From Pseudoxanthomonas broegbernensis (GTDB lineage Bacteria > Pseudomonadota > Gammaproteobacteria > Xanthomonadales > Xanthomonadaceae): a DNA stretch of 64,000 nucleotides. The notes beneath the pieces are model-generated. The model saw only the letters and a program-made list of their open reading frames with translations, was not told the origin of the DNA and ran no database searches. The DNA is taken from positions 62,001 through 126,000 of the forward strand of contig NZ_JACHGU010000001.1 of assembly GCF_014202435.1 (NCBI RefSeq), read 5' to 3'. Shown one piece after another: positions 14,716 to 19,096 of this stretch. The position numbers and the translations under genes were made by a program. The first letter of the stretch is position 1. Each line of letters starts with the position of its first letter.

Positions 14716-15201
14716 GCAGCAGGGTTCCTCGCAGGCGGTGGGACGGATGGGCGGCCTGGGAACGGCCATGCTCATCAAACTGAACAGAGTCTGCTGCGCC
14801 TGGATTTAACGTCCGGTGAAGTAGCCTGCGTCCTTCGCCGTGGCGCACGGCCGGCCGGGTCCGGCGCCCGCCGCGGGGCCTTCGCCGGCAAGGGCCGCGC
14901 GCGGCCCGTGGCGCGGTTGACAGCCAGCAGGGTGGGGGTTAGCTTGACGGTCTGTTGCGCCACTAGATATAGCGTTTTCTCGAAAGAAAGACCCAATCGA
15001 TGGTGTTTTTCATGAATACGCATCAAAAGGTGCCAGAGCCGGAAGAGGCGACGGAATGAGGCAGGGAGTTGCCATCCACCGCCGCTGCGCCGGCTACCCA
15101 CGACCCAGTATTTGACCCGGTCCGCGGTGCGGCTGGCGGCCACGCCATGCCCGCGACGGGACATGGAGCAAGATCCAGATGCGGAAGGAGAACCCATCAG
15201 C
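14716..15201. other. intergenic region between degQ and nrdJa
   Basis: 486 bases without a supportable gene. It begins GC-rich and has an unusual AT-richer patch from about 14935 to 15050 (TAGATATAGCGTTTTCTCG, then ATGAATACGCATCAAAAGG), where the nrdJ promoter is placed. I looked for a cobalamin riboswitch (B12 box) because NrdJ uses B12 and saw none. A TTGACA at 14917-14922 is a second possible -35 element without a good -10. Confidence 0.55.
14944..14974 (+). promoter_or_regulatory. nrdJ promoter with NrdR-box-like site over the -10
   Basis: TTGACG at 14944-14949 is followed after 18 bases by TATAGC at 14968-14973. The -10 lies inside GCCACTAGATATAGCG (14959-14974), close to the NrdR box consensus ACACWATATCTWGTGT read on either strand. 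NrdR represses ribonucleotide reductase genes when dATP is high, and boxes normally overlap promoters. A second box at the usual spacing was not found, which lowers confidence. Confidence 0.55.
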
Positions 15202-17358
15202 ATGAGCACGGTGCGCCTCGAAGTGGTCCAGGACAACACCAAAGCCAGCGGGGAGATCCCCCTGCAGCCCGCGTCCCAGGACATCTGGGACAAGAAGTAC
15301 CGCCTGAAGACCAAGGCCGGCGTGCCCCTGGACGCGGACATCGACGGCACCTACCAGCGGGTGGCCCGCGCCCTGGCCGACGCCGAGCGGACCGACGACA
15401 AGCGCGGCTACTGGTACGAGCGCTTCCTGTGGGCGCTGCGCCGCGGCGCGATCCCGGCCGGCCGCATCACCTCCAATGCCGGCGCGCTGGAACACAAGCC
15501 GGCCACCAGCACGATCAACTGCACCGTCTCGGGCACCATCACCGATTCGATGGACGGCATCCTGGAGAAGGTCCACGAGGCCGGGCTGACCCTGAAGGCC
15601 GGCTGCGGCATCGGCTACGAGTTCTCCACGCTGCGCCCGCGCGGCGCGTTCGTGGCCGGCGCCGGCGCCTACACCTCCGGGCCGATGTCCTTCATGGATA
15701 TCTACGACAAGATGTGCTTCACCGTGTCGTCGGCCGGCGGCCGCCGCGGCGCGCAGATGGGCACGTTCGACGTGTCGCACCCGGACGTGAAGGACTTCAT
15801 CCGGGCCAAGCGCGAGGACGGGCGCCTGCGCCAGTTCAACCTCTCGCTGCTGATCACCGACGGCTTCATGCAGGCGGTGGCCGACGACGCCGACTGGCCG
15901 CTGGTGTTCCCGATCAACCGCAAGGAAGAGGGTGACATCGACATCGCCGACGCGGCCAAGGTGGTCTGGCGCGACTGGCCCACCCACGACAACTACATCG
16001 TGCGCGACGACGGCCTGGTGGCCTGCAAGGTGTACGGGCACATCCGCGCCCGCCACCTGTGGGACATGATCATGGTCTCCACCTACGACTACGCCGAGCC
16101 GGGCTTCATCCTGATCGACAAGGTCAACGAGATGAACAACAACTGGTGGTGCGAGAACATCCGCGCCACCAACCCCTGCGGCGAGCAGCCCTTGCCGCCC
16201 TATGGCGCCTGCCTGCTGGGCTCGGTCAACCTGACCACCTTCGTGCGCGACGCGTTCACCGACAAGGCGCGCTTCGACTGGGAGGAATACAAGGAAGTGG
16301 TGCGGGTGTTCACCCGCATGCTCGACAACGTCGTGGAAGTGAACGGCCTTCCCCTGCAGCAGCAGCGCGACGAGATCATGCGCAAGCGCCGCCACGGCAT
16401 GGGCTTCCTCGGCCTGGGCAGCACCCTGACCATGCTGAGGATGAAGTACGGCTCGGCGCCGAGCCTGGAGTTCACCGACCGCATCGCCCGTGACATGGCC
16501 GTGGCCGGCTGGGAAGTGGGCCTGTCGCTGGCCCGCGAGAAGGGCCCGGCGCCGATCATGGAGGAACGCTTCGCCGTGACCGCGCAGATGCTGCGCCAGC
16601 GCCCGGAGATGGCGAAGGATGGCTGGCGCGTGGGCCAGGAGATCGAGGGCAAGGTGCTGCACGCCCGCTACAGCCGCTACATGCAGCGCATCGCCTCGGT
16701 AGCGCCCGAGCTGGTGGAGGAACTGGCCGAGACCGGCGCGCGTTTCACCCACCACAGCTCCATCGCGCCCACCGGCACCATCTCCCTGTCGCTGGCCAAC
16801 AACGCCTCCAACGGCATCGAGCCGTCCTTCGCCCACCACTACAGCCGCAACGTGATCCGCGAGGGCAAGAAGAGCAAGGAGAAGGTGGACGTCTACAGCT
16901 TGGAGCTGCTGGCCTACCGCCACCTGGTCAACCCGAAGGCCATGCCCTTCGCCGAGACCGCCGATGCGCAACTGCCGGACTACTTCATCTCCGCCGACGA
17001 CATCCATCCCAAGGAGCACGTCGACGTCCAGGCCGCCGCGCAGAAGTGGGTGGACAGCTCCATCTCCAAGACCGCCAACGTGCCCACGGACTACCCGTAC
17101 GAGGATTTCAAGGACATTTACCGCTACGCCTACGAGCAGGGCCTGAAGGGCTGCACCACGTTCCGCTTCAACCCGGCCGCCTTCCAGGGCGTGCTGGTCA
17201 AGGAGAAGGACCTGGAGAACACCACCTACCGGTTCGAGCTGGAAGACGGCTCGGTGGTGGAGGTCAAGGGCAACGAGGAGATCGAGTACGACGGCGAGAC
17301 CCACACCGCCGCCAACCTGTTCGATGCGCTGAAGGAAGGGTATTACGGCAAGTTCTGA
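15202..17358 (+). CDS. nrdJ: adenosylcobalamin-dependent ribonucleotide reductase, large part (NrdJa, class II)
   Basis: 718 residues. It reduces ribonucleotides to deoxyribonucleotides with a B12-generated thiyl radical and needs no oxygen. The ten-stranded barrel motifs are visible: redox Cys107 (TINCTVSG), the barrel core (KAGCGIGYEFSTLRPRG), and the active-site loop NPCGEQPLPPYGAC with Cys326 and Glu328; further on are THHSSIAPTGTIS and the C-terminal TTFRFNPAAF. It stops before the C-terminal cysteine tail, which is encoded separately by the gene at 18317, as in the split NrdJa/NrdJb of Pseudomonas. AAGGAG lies 11 bases before ATG 15202. A NrdR-like box lies over the promoter. Confidence 0.94.
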   Translation: MSTVRLEVVQDNTKASGEIPLQPASQDIWDKKYRLKTKAGVPLDADIDGTYQRVARALADAERTDDKRGYWYERFLWALRRGAIPAGRITSNAGALEHKPATSTINCTVSGTITDSMDGILEKVHEAGLTLKAGCGIGYEFSTLRPRGAFVAGAGAYTSGPMSFMDIYDKMCFTVSSAGGRRGAQMGTFDVSHPDVKDFIRAKREDGRLRQFNLSLLITDGFMQAVADDADWPLVFPINRKEEGDIDIADAAKVVWRDWPTHDNYIVRDDGLVACKVYGHIRARHLWDMIMVSTYDYAEPGFILIDKVNEMNNNWWCENIRATNPCGEQPLPPYGACLLGSVNLTTFVRDAFTDKARFDWEEYKEVVRVFTRMLDNVVEVNGLPLQQQRDEIMRKRRHGMGFLGLGSTLTMLRMKYGSAPSLEFTDRIARDMAVAGWEVGLSLAREKGPAPIMEERFAVTAQMLRQRPEMAKDGWRVGQEIEGKVLHARYSRYMQRIASVAPELVEELAETGARFTHHSSIAPTGTISLSLANNASNGIEPSFAHHYSRNVIREGKKSKEKVDVYSLELLAYRHLVNPKAMPFAETADAQLPDYFISADDIHPKEHVDVQAAAQKWVDSSISKTANVPTDYPYEDFKDIYRYAYEQGLKGCTTFRFNPAAFQGVLVKEKDLENTTYRFELEDGSVVEVKGNEEIEYDGETHTAANLFDALKEGYYGKF

Positions 17359-17594
17359 GCGAGGCCCGCGGGAGGCCATGGGGAGGCGCGGCGCGGGGCC
17401 CGGGCGGGAAGCCGGTGCCGCCGGCCTGTCGCGGTCCCGGTGAAGGCCCAGGGGCCCCGCCGATTCGAAGGCCGCGGCGCGCGCTGTTCCGGGCGCCCGC
17501 CGTGGCCGGTTCCACCGCGGTACGGCGCCCGGAAAGACGTAGCGAGTGTCCCGCACCACATACAGGCAAGAGTAGCGCCCCCCAGGAGGGCCCC

Positions 17595-18206
17595 ATGAGC
17601 AATGGCAATGGTGTGACGGCGACTCTGTCCGAGGCCGCCGAAACCGTGAAGGAAACCGTCAGCGAGGTGGGCAGCAGCATCGCCGCCACCGCCAGCGAGG
17701 CCGTGGCCAGCGCCGGCGAGGCGGTGACCAAGGCCCGCAAGGCCGCATCCAAGCGCGCGGCCACGGTGAAGAAGGCCGCCACCCGCAAGGTCGCCGCCGC
17801 CAGGAAAGCGGTGAAGACCGACGTGGGCAAGGCGAAGAAGGTGGTGAAGAAGGCCGTGTCCAAGGCGAAGAAGAAGCTGACCGCCGCCAAGGACAGCGCC
17901 GCCGCCGAGGCCGCCGCCCTGCGCAGGAAGCTGGGCAAGAAGGCCCCGGCGAAGAAGGCGGTCGCCAAGAAGGCCGCCACGAAGAAGACGGCTGTCAAGA
18001 AGACGGCGACCAAGAAGGCCGCGAAGAAGCCAGTGGCGAAGAAGCCGTCCGCAAGGAAGGCCGCGCCCCGGAAGGCGGCCGGCCAGGCGCCGGCCAGGAA
18101 GGCCGCCGCGAAGAAGGCGGTGAAGAAAGCCGCGCCGAAGAAGGCCGCCAAGGCCGTGAAGAAGGCTCCGGCCAGGAAGGCGGTCGCCAAGAAGGCGAGG
18201 AAGTAA
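17595..18206 (+). CDS. histone H1-like Lys/Ala-rich DNA-binding protein (AlgP-like)
   Basis: 203 residues, from ATG 17595 with AGGAGGG ahead. The first 45 residues are acidic/neutral and helical (AAETVKETVSEVGSS); the rest is built of AKKA, KKAA and ARKA repeats, with roughly a third lysine and no cysteine or tryptophan. This is the make-up of bacterial H1-like proteins (AlgP of Pseudomonas, KAP/Hc-like proteins) that bind DNA without sequence preference. It sits between the two halves of the class II reductase, 236 bases after nrdJa and with a strong hairpin after it. A link between chromosome compaction and dNTP supply is only an inference from this position. Confidence 0.87.
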   Translation: MSNGNGVTATLSEAAETVKETVSEVGSSIAATASEAVASAGEAVTKARKAASKRAATVKKAATRKVAAARKAVKTDVGKAKKVVKKAVSKAKKKLTAAKDSAAAEAAALRRKLGKKAPAKKAVAKKAATKKTAVKKTATKKAAKKPVAKKPSARKAAPRKAAGQAPARKAAAKKAVKKAAPKKAAKAVKKAPARKAVAKKARK

Positions 18207-18316: not shown

Positions 18317-19096
18317 ATGGCCGTCAAGATCGACCAGAAGATAAAGGGCTACGCCGTCGTCACCTCCGAGGACAAGGCGCGCGAGGCCGCCGCCCCGGTG
18401 CCGGCCGCCCCGGTCGACCGCGCCGGCGTTCAGGCCGAGGCCAAGGACAACGTCATCCACATGCACGAGCGCATCGAGCGCCCGGAAGTCCTGATCGGCA
18501 GCACCTACAAGATCAAGTCGCCGATGGTCGAGCACGCCATGTACGTGACCATCAACGACATCGTCCTCAATGCCGGCACCGAGCACGAGCTGCGCCGCCC
18601 GTTCGAGGTGTTCATCAACTCCAAGTCGATGGATCACTTCCAGTGGATCGTCGCCCTCACCCGGATCATGTCGGCCGTGTTCCGCAAGGGCGGCGACGTG
18701 ACCTTCCTGGTGGAGGAGATGAAGGCCGTGTTCGACCCGCGTGGCGGCTACTTCAAGGCTGGCGGCGTGTACATGCCCTCGCTGGTGGCCGAGATCGGCG
18801 CGATCGTGGAGGAGCACCTGAAGTCGATCGGCATGATCCACGACCCGGAGATGAGCGAGCACCAGAAGGCGCTGATCGCCGAGAAGCGCAGGCAGTTCGA
18901 GAGCCGCTCGAAAAAAAACAGTGAGGTGAGCGCGGCCCCGGCCGCCGCCGCCCGCGAGGAGGACGTCGCCGTGACCGGCGACGGCACCCGCTTCCCGCCC
19001 AGCGCCACCATGTGCCACAAGTGCAGCACCCAGGCGCTGGTGATCATGGACGGGTGCGCGACGTGCTTGAATTGCGGTTATTCGAAGTGCGGGTAA
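18317..19096 (+). CDS. class II ribonucleotide reductase C-terminal part (NrdJb), TSCPD-domain
   Basis: 259 residues. Residues 60-180 are the TSCPD-type domain that follows the catalytic barrel in unsplit class II reductases (KSPMVEHAMYVTINDIVLNA, RRPFEVFINSK). The last 25 residues hold six cysteines (CHKCSTQAL, GCATCLNCGYSKCG), the flexible tail that re-reduces the active-site disulfide. It therefore should pair with NrdJa 1 kb upstream. The linker between domain and tail contains an A8 run (18911-18918) that forms the heptamer A AAA AAC in frame at codons 199-201; a -1 slip meets TGA one codon later and yields a 202-residue protein without the tail. Confidence 0.9.
   Translation: MAVKIDQKIKGYAVVTSEDKAREAAAPVPAAPVDRAGVQAEAKDNVIHMHERIERPEVLIGSTYKIKSPMVEHAMYVTINDIVLNAGTEHELRRPFEVFINSKSMDHFQWIVALTRIMSAVFRKGGDVTFLVEEMKAVFDPRGGYFKAGGVYMPSLVAEIGAIVEEHLKSIGMIHDPEMSEHQKALIAEKRRQFESRSKKNSEVSAAPAAAAREEDVAVTGDGTRFPPSATMCHKCSTQALVIMDGCATCLNCGYSKCG
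18911..18945 (+). other. candidate slippery site (recoding or polymerase slippage) in nrdJb
   Basis: Eight A's in a very GC-rich gene give A AAA AAC in the zero frame. The -1 frame reads CAG TGA directly after, and the other frame reads ACA GTG AGG TGA, so both shifted frames stop within 15 bases. GCGGCC-CC-GGCCGC (18932-18945), a perfect dyad, starts 12 bases after the heptamer. The layout parallels the dnaX frameshift site of E. coli (A AAA AAG, then a -1 TGA and a stem-loop). Function is not shown by sequence. Confidence 0.5.

Follow-up and report, generated by a model that had tools for sequence, protein, structure and literature searches.

A conserved adenine run with stops in both shifted frames marks a predicted transcriptional-slippage site in nrdJb of a bacterial order

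Ribonucleotide reductase (RNR) is among the most tightly controlled enzymes. In Pseudomonas aeruginosa, NrdJa and NrdJb are reported to form a 1:1 complex, with Kd values of 54 to 690 nM by surface plasmon resonance depending on the ligand, and NrdJb to supply thiol–disulfide exchange (PMC4520616). The cysteine-rich domain of Stackebrandtia NrdJd, described as identical to the NrdJb subunit, is reported to act in oligomerisation and electron transfer, with zinc and a redox pair in its last residues (PMC5704485). The nrdJb gene considered here shares its protein pair and domain layout with these enzymes, and the parts of the two accounts drawn on mention no second, tail-less NrdJb (PMC4520616, PMC5704485).

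A protein can lose its C-terminal part through transcriptional slippage, and Thermus dnaX is reported to yield about 50% short product in this way (PMC1088944, PMC5009743). The RNA:DNA hybrid is given as 9–10 bp (PMC5009743), and in A/T runs of E. coli and Buchnera insertions are described as rising exponentially with run length and as being mostly of a single base (PMC5574713). A 2005 survey of A9/T9 runs retained, by its account, only genes whose product slippage would make longer, and held dnaX-like shortening to be hard to judge by comparison (PMC1088944).

Here, we analyse an adenine run in nrdJb of Pseudoxanthomonas broegbernensis and its relatives. At the level of sequence, what is conserved is the run, its length across registers, the stops in both shifted frames and the loss of these features together. 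The evidence suggests that cells may deliberately make a short NrdJb without the redox tail, and we put at about two in three the probability that the run serves as a site of programmed transcriptional slippage (realignment), one that would yield both a full-length and a tail-less protein.

The nrdJb gene and its adenine run

The window, that is, the whole stretch of 64 kb of DNA that was analysed, encodes the second subunit of a split class II RNR (cysteine-rich domain; 259 amino acids) at 18317..19096 (+). It has the two parts that mark such an NrdJb, in a gene separate from nrdJa: a TSCPD domain (residues 63–168, 18503..18820, +; Pfam PF12637, E 1.7e-7), which is also matched by the first 200 residues alone, and a C-terminal six-cysteine tail (residues 226–259, 18992..19093, +), whose cysteines (C233, C236, C247, C250, C253 and C258) are invariant across 34 aligned sequences. 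The partner gene nrdJa, encoding the catalytic subunit (Pfam PF02867, NCBIfam TIGR02504), lies at 15112..17358 (+), coordinates that are those of the open frame, within which the real start may be internal. Between the two genes is a Lys/Ala-rich, histone H1-like open frame (17592-18203, +) whose best Pfam match, HC2 at E 7.5e-4, is under the curated cut-off. The organism also has class I genes, namely NrdB and a second large-subunit gene. The AlphaFold model of NrdJb is modest (mean pLDDT 71.8, pTM 0.47) and places the A-run near the end of helix 181-206, ahead of a low-confidence segment at 205-222; with it, Foldseek found nothing at E ≤ 0.001, and no solved relative turned up in a profile search at E ≤ 1.

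An earlier note on this DNA had pointed to an A8 run that is unusual in the gene, lies between the TSCPD domain and the tail, and sets A AAA AAC in frame, and all of this is confirmed. The run, our predicted slippage site, occupies 18911..18918 (+) and is the only run of at least seven A on either strand of the window, where A7 matches twice (the two overlapping) against 0.05 expected, a count of two being reached by 1 in 100 shuffles. The codons read TCG AAA AAA AAC AGT GAG GTG AGC and contain an in-frame X XXY YYZ heptamer (18913-18919) with a stop in the −1 frame. The stops that the note had read after the run are likewise there: the −1 reading is CAG TGA, its TGA starting 3 nt on (18922..18924, +) and reached by a transcript with one additional A, and a TGA in the +1 frame starts 8 nt on (18927..18929, +), reached by a transcript with one A fewer or two more. 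Translated in silico, window transcripts with A7, A8, A9 and A10 give 203, 259, 202 and 204 amino acids, respectively. Both predicted forms would retain the TSCPD domain, and the six-cysteine tail would be missing from the short one; the note's proposal of proteins of about 202 and 259 residues, without and with the redox tail, gains support from the conservation of this frame-loss site.

Conservation of the run and of the off-frame stops

A scan of genome contigs returned 350 stretches encoding a relative, the best 80 of which were used; their titles name nearly all as Lysobacteraceae or Lysobacterales, apart from a Thiobacillaceae metagenome-assembled genome (L017) and two given only as Proteobacteria (L015, L056). 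An order-wide search found a match in 333 of 397 genomes, and 162 further loci of the order, including the window's own, were added. The resulting 242 loci correspond to 220 distinct nrdJb genes, for which a tree was built with FastTree from an alignment that leaves out the linker.

Taking the longest linker A-run of each gene, we found a length of 10 in 6, 9 in 161, 8 in 3 (the window, L049 and L183), 7 in 1 and at most 6 in 49. Of the 220 genes from the order, 167 thus carry A9 or A10, whereas synonymous redraws, made for the run-bearing genes other than L182 (dropped for its zero-frame stop), predict 0.12 of 169; with crude k-mer clustering, A9 or more is found in 127 of 172 clusters. The run is absent or short (≤7) in 50 genes, and the 170 with A8 or more are counted here as run-bearing. 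Third positions in the run-bearing genes are 88% G/C, and outside the site lysine is coded by AAA in 12.6% of cases (AAG 87%), serine by TCA in 1.5% and valine by GTA in 1.7%. The place where the run ends falls into three registers, of 155, 12 and 3 genes, and the tree implies at least 9 changes of register, while the run stayed 9–10 long. The run's presence has changed at least 29 times, from which it follows that the run was often lost or, less likely, regained.

These data bear directly on the idea that a Lys-Lys-Asn peptide is what is conserved and that the adenines merely follow from it. SKKN and SKKK are common at the start of the linker, as that idea would have it, but the codons that are fixed are rare ones elsewhere in these genes, the other registers keep the adenines with different peptides, and four genes (L010, L014, L216 and L280) code KK with AAG. 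Codon use and register changes together contradict a conserved peptide motif as the cause, and we give it a probability close to nil.

The sequence after the run is constrained as well. The main register typically reads TCA AAA AAA AA(C/G) NNT GAN GTR AGC, in which the −1 frame ends at CNN TGA and the +1 frame at ANG TRA. A −1 stop is found within 9 nt past the run in 167 of 170 run-bearing genes (14.4 of 169 expected from synonymous redraws), a +1 stop in 134 (31.3 of 169) and both in 131 (2.5 of 169), counts that, like those of run length, refer to the longest linker run in genes chosen for that run; in 25 of the 170, no +1 stop lies within 15 nt. Because genes lacking the run have no matched place in such counts, the comparison was repeated with a fixed measure, the first 75 nt of the linker, in which both stops occur in 164 of 170 genes with the run compared to 5 of 50 without. 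Ten supported independent pairs of genes differ in the run; on average, the stops change in the same direction in 9.4 of the ten, with a median p of 0.002. When the 252 codon columns of the 153 main-register genes whose run is A9 or longer are ranked by A or T at the third position, the top four are the three of the run, which have A by selection of the genes, and the NNT column, which was not selected and has T in 147 of 153. The 12-gene register reaches its stops by other arrangements (TGACTGA, TGAGCTGA), both lying within 15 nt in 9 of the 12. By synonymous redraws, register changes and independent pairs alike, the predicted frame-loss site as a whole is conserved beyond coding constraint and far beyond chance.

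Contingency loci, too, are laid out as a homopolymer with stops behind it in the two other frames, and replication slippage on the run would then toggle the tail on and off between cells. One gene looks the part: in L182 (G412), a zero-frame stop comes right after the A9 (2089-2097) and the tail lies in another frame, so that either its full-length NrdJb depends on slippage or the assembly is in error, as it may be since the G412 draft is 90% complete and split into 180 contigs. The tail is, however, reached in frame by 169 of the 170 run-bearing genes, L182 being the sole exception among those listed, and the few genes whose run is not 9 long are in frame, all of this in a set with one genome per species. 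Phase variation of this kind therefore seems very improbable.

That the run should recur in relatives, on which the earlier note had staked its reading, holds for most of the order and less well for the window's own genus. There, 16 of 17 genomes have a match: 7 of the 16 have A9, the window has A8, 6 have no run, and the remaining two are a copy broken by stops with A7 (G787) and a fragment that does not include the site (G785). The three copies closest to the window's (91–92% identity) have TCA and A9, where the window has TCG, so that a change from TCA to TCG is the most likely origin of its A8; being A8, the site is probably weaker in this species. Beyond the order, A9 occurs within the 60 codons before the tail in none of 66 nrdJb loci, taken from 170 matching genomes; one of these outside genes, L320, has an A8 farther upstream.

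How the frame might be lost

In the process we favour, RNA polymerase would slip on about nine A, the length of its RNA:DNA hybrid, and give a mixed pool of nrdJb mRNA. Messages with the templated number of A, or a number differing from it by three, would encode full-length NrdJb, and those with other numbers would reach a stop within a few codons, yielding an NrdJb of about 202–204 residues, with the TSCPD part kept and the six-cysteine tail, which passes electrons to the active site, lost. Since insertions in such runs are mostly of one base, the −1 stop would be the one reached, and it is the better conserved of the two. That slippage occurs, and that the polymerase rather than the ribosome is its agent, we infer from a run that is about as long as the hybrid, keeps its length whatever the register, is followed by stops in both frames and has no conserved structure beside it.

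The ribosome could make largely the same short proteins, by −1 frameshifting on A AAA AAC or A AAA AAG, as in E. coli dnaX, or by sliding on AAA, and we regard this as possible but rather unlikely. In its favour, 158 of the 220 genes have the A AAA AAN heptamer in frame, and, the run aside, no feature is better kept than the −1 stop. E. coli dnaX itself is reported to use A AAA AAG (PMC5009743), and ribosomes to slide on iterated AAA (PMC4363877). The main register, however, offers just two AAA, on which E. coli ribosomes reportedly do not slide in vivo (PMC4363877). The heptamer also has no need of the further A at the wobble base before it, which is nevertheless kept in 153 of the 158 genes; of the other five, three (L171, L174 and L182) extend to 9–10 A at their 3′ end and two (L049 and the window) have A8. 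The +1 stops, kept at over four times the expected number, are superfluous for −1 frameshifting.

Nor is there a conserved downstream structure of the kind that stimulates frameshifting in E. coli dnaX. The perfect GC dyad to which the earlier note had drawn attention does exist (GCGGCC-CC-GGCCGC, 18932-18945), but as a stem-loop after the run it had to be rejected: the stretch at 18919-18975 folds like its shuffles (z 0.12), and relatives show no trend. Among 71 run-bearing relatives sampled, the mean z is +0.30 for downstream structure (the window alone, −1.09) and +0.17 for an upstream hairpin, neither being conserved, and the codons flanking the run vary among the relatives listed. Folding like shuffles and lacking a counterpart in relatives, the dyad looks like chance in a GC-rich linker. 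The note's parallel with the E. coli dnaX mechanism, heptamer plus stem-loop, is not supported: the stem-loop is unconserved, and what is kept is nine A rather than seven, in several registers and with stops in both frames. Nor does a slippery run of the dnaX type show in the organism's own dnaX (L406), the 4,053 bases around that gene having no A/T run of 6 or more and no G/C run of 7 or more.

Elsewhere in these genomes A9 is scarce; 2 of 40 genomes of the family have none, and G652 and G586 each have just one, which lies in nrdJb. Among 60 listed A9 sites, 3 belong to nrdJb and a crude ORF/GC3 rule picked out 7 more as apparently coding. A tblastx comparison within the 60 paired two of these 7, L358 with L361, both from one genome, and the Lys-rich, H1-like L364 with L390, and left the other five without a partner. 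Most of the 15 A9 contexts viewed by eye lie before hairpins or in repeats. In two genomes (L349, L370), A9 stands directly before a GC hairpin that is the same in both and looks terminator-like, and G762 has several copies of a repeat (GTCCGCAAAG...GGGCGC; L377, L379, L381, L382 and L384) ending in A9–A11.

This scarcity matters for the view that the run has some other purpose at the DNA or RNA level, with stops that only guard against junk from accidental slippage and a short protein that has no role. Off-frame stops would make accidental slippage cheap, and losses of the run are common. Another purpose within a coding region is not apparent, however, runs of nine A are otherwise rare, and AAG codons, as used in the four genes noted above, would be the simpler safeguard; we consider a mere safeguard distinctly improbable.

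Ribonucleotide reductase context and known slippage sites

If transcriptional slippage does occur, the short NrdJb would be expected to be stable and to bind NrdJa, and to tune the RNR most simply, and most likely, by occupying NrdJa as a protein of about 202 residues without supporting turnover. The ratio of short to full-length form might be fixed or condition-dependent.

No link to class I RNR was seen: NrdB was not found in 12 of 40 run-bearing and, similarly, in 10 of 40 run-lacking genomes, and a tie between the run and the absence of class I RNR was rejected on these numbers. The 12 run-bearing genomes in which NrdB (PF00268) was not found, some of them incomplete drafts, are G380, G385, G388, G389, G394, G399, G405, G406, G415, G437, G443 and G446, and the main RNR of these genomes may be the class II enzyme. 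One conjecture, which we think quite unlikely, is nucleotide sensing, in which slippage on A9 would depend on NTP supply, so that RNA polymerase, in transcribing the gene of an RNR subunit, would gauge the nucleotide pool and set the ratio of tailed to tail-less NrdJb, feeding back on dNTP synthesis. Were it true, such feedback would be a layer separate from allostery and NrdR, acting on what may be the main RNR in 12 of 40 sampled run-bearing genomes.

Should the main reading hold, RNR would have a second subunit form set by polymerase slippage across much of a bacterial order, and the joint conservation of run length and both-frame stops across register changes would offer a way to find shortening sites. 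No earlier report of slippage or frameshifting in nrdJ or nrdJb was found among the papers that the literature searches listed, subscription papers being mostly outside these. The mechanism of transcriptional slippage is already known, and the gene and the lineage appear to be new.

Thermus belongs to a different phylum from the nrdJb lineage described here. As reported in part for Thermus thermophilus dnaX, nrdJb in the order carries about nine A in the coding strand of a long ORF, with close stops in both other frames, and would give a shorter product without C-terminal domains (PMC1088944, PMC5009743). The two differ in that nrdJb encodes an RNR subunit, of different function, in that the register of its run varies among lineages, and in that its slippage and short product are predicted from sequence. 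With E. coli dnaX, nrdJb shares the A AAA AAN heptamer in frame, a −1 stop after it and a like layout of products, but it has no conserved stem-loop, and nine A and +1 stops are also kept. On present evidence, the putative slippage site of nrdJb fits transcriptional slippage of the Thermus dnaX type better than frameshifting of the E. coli dnaX type.
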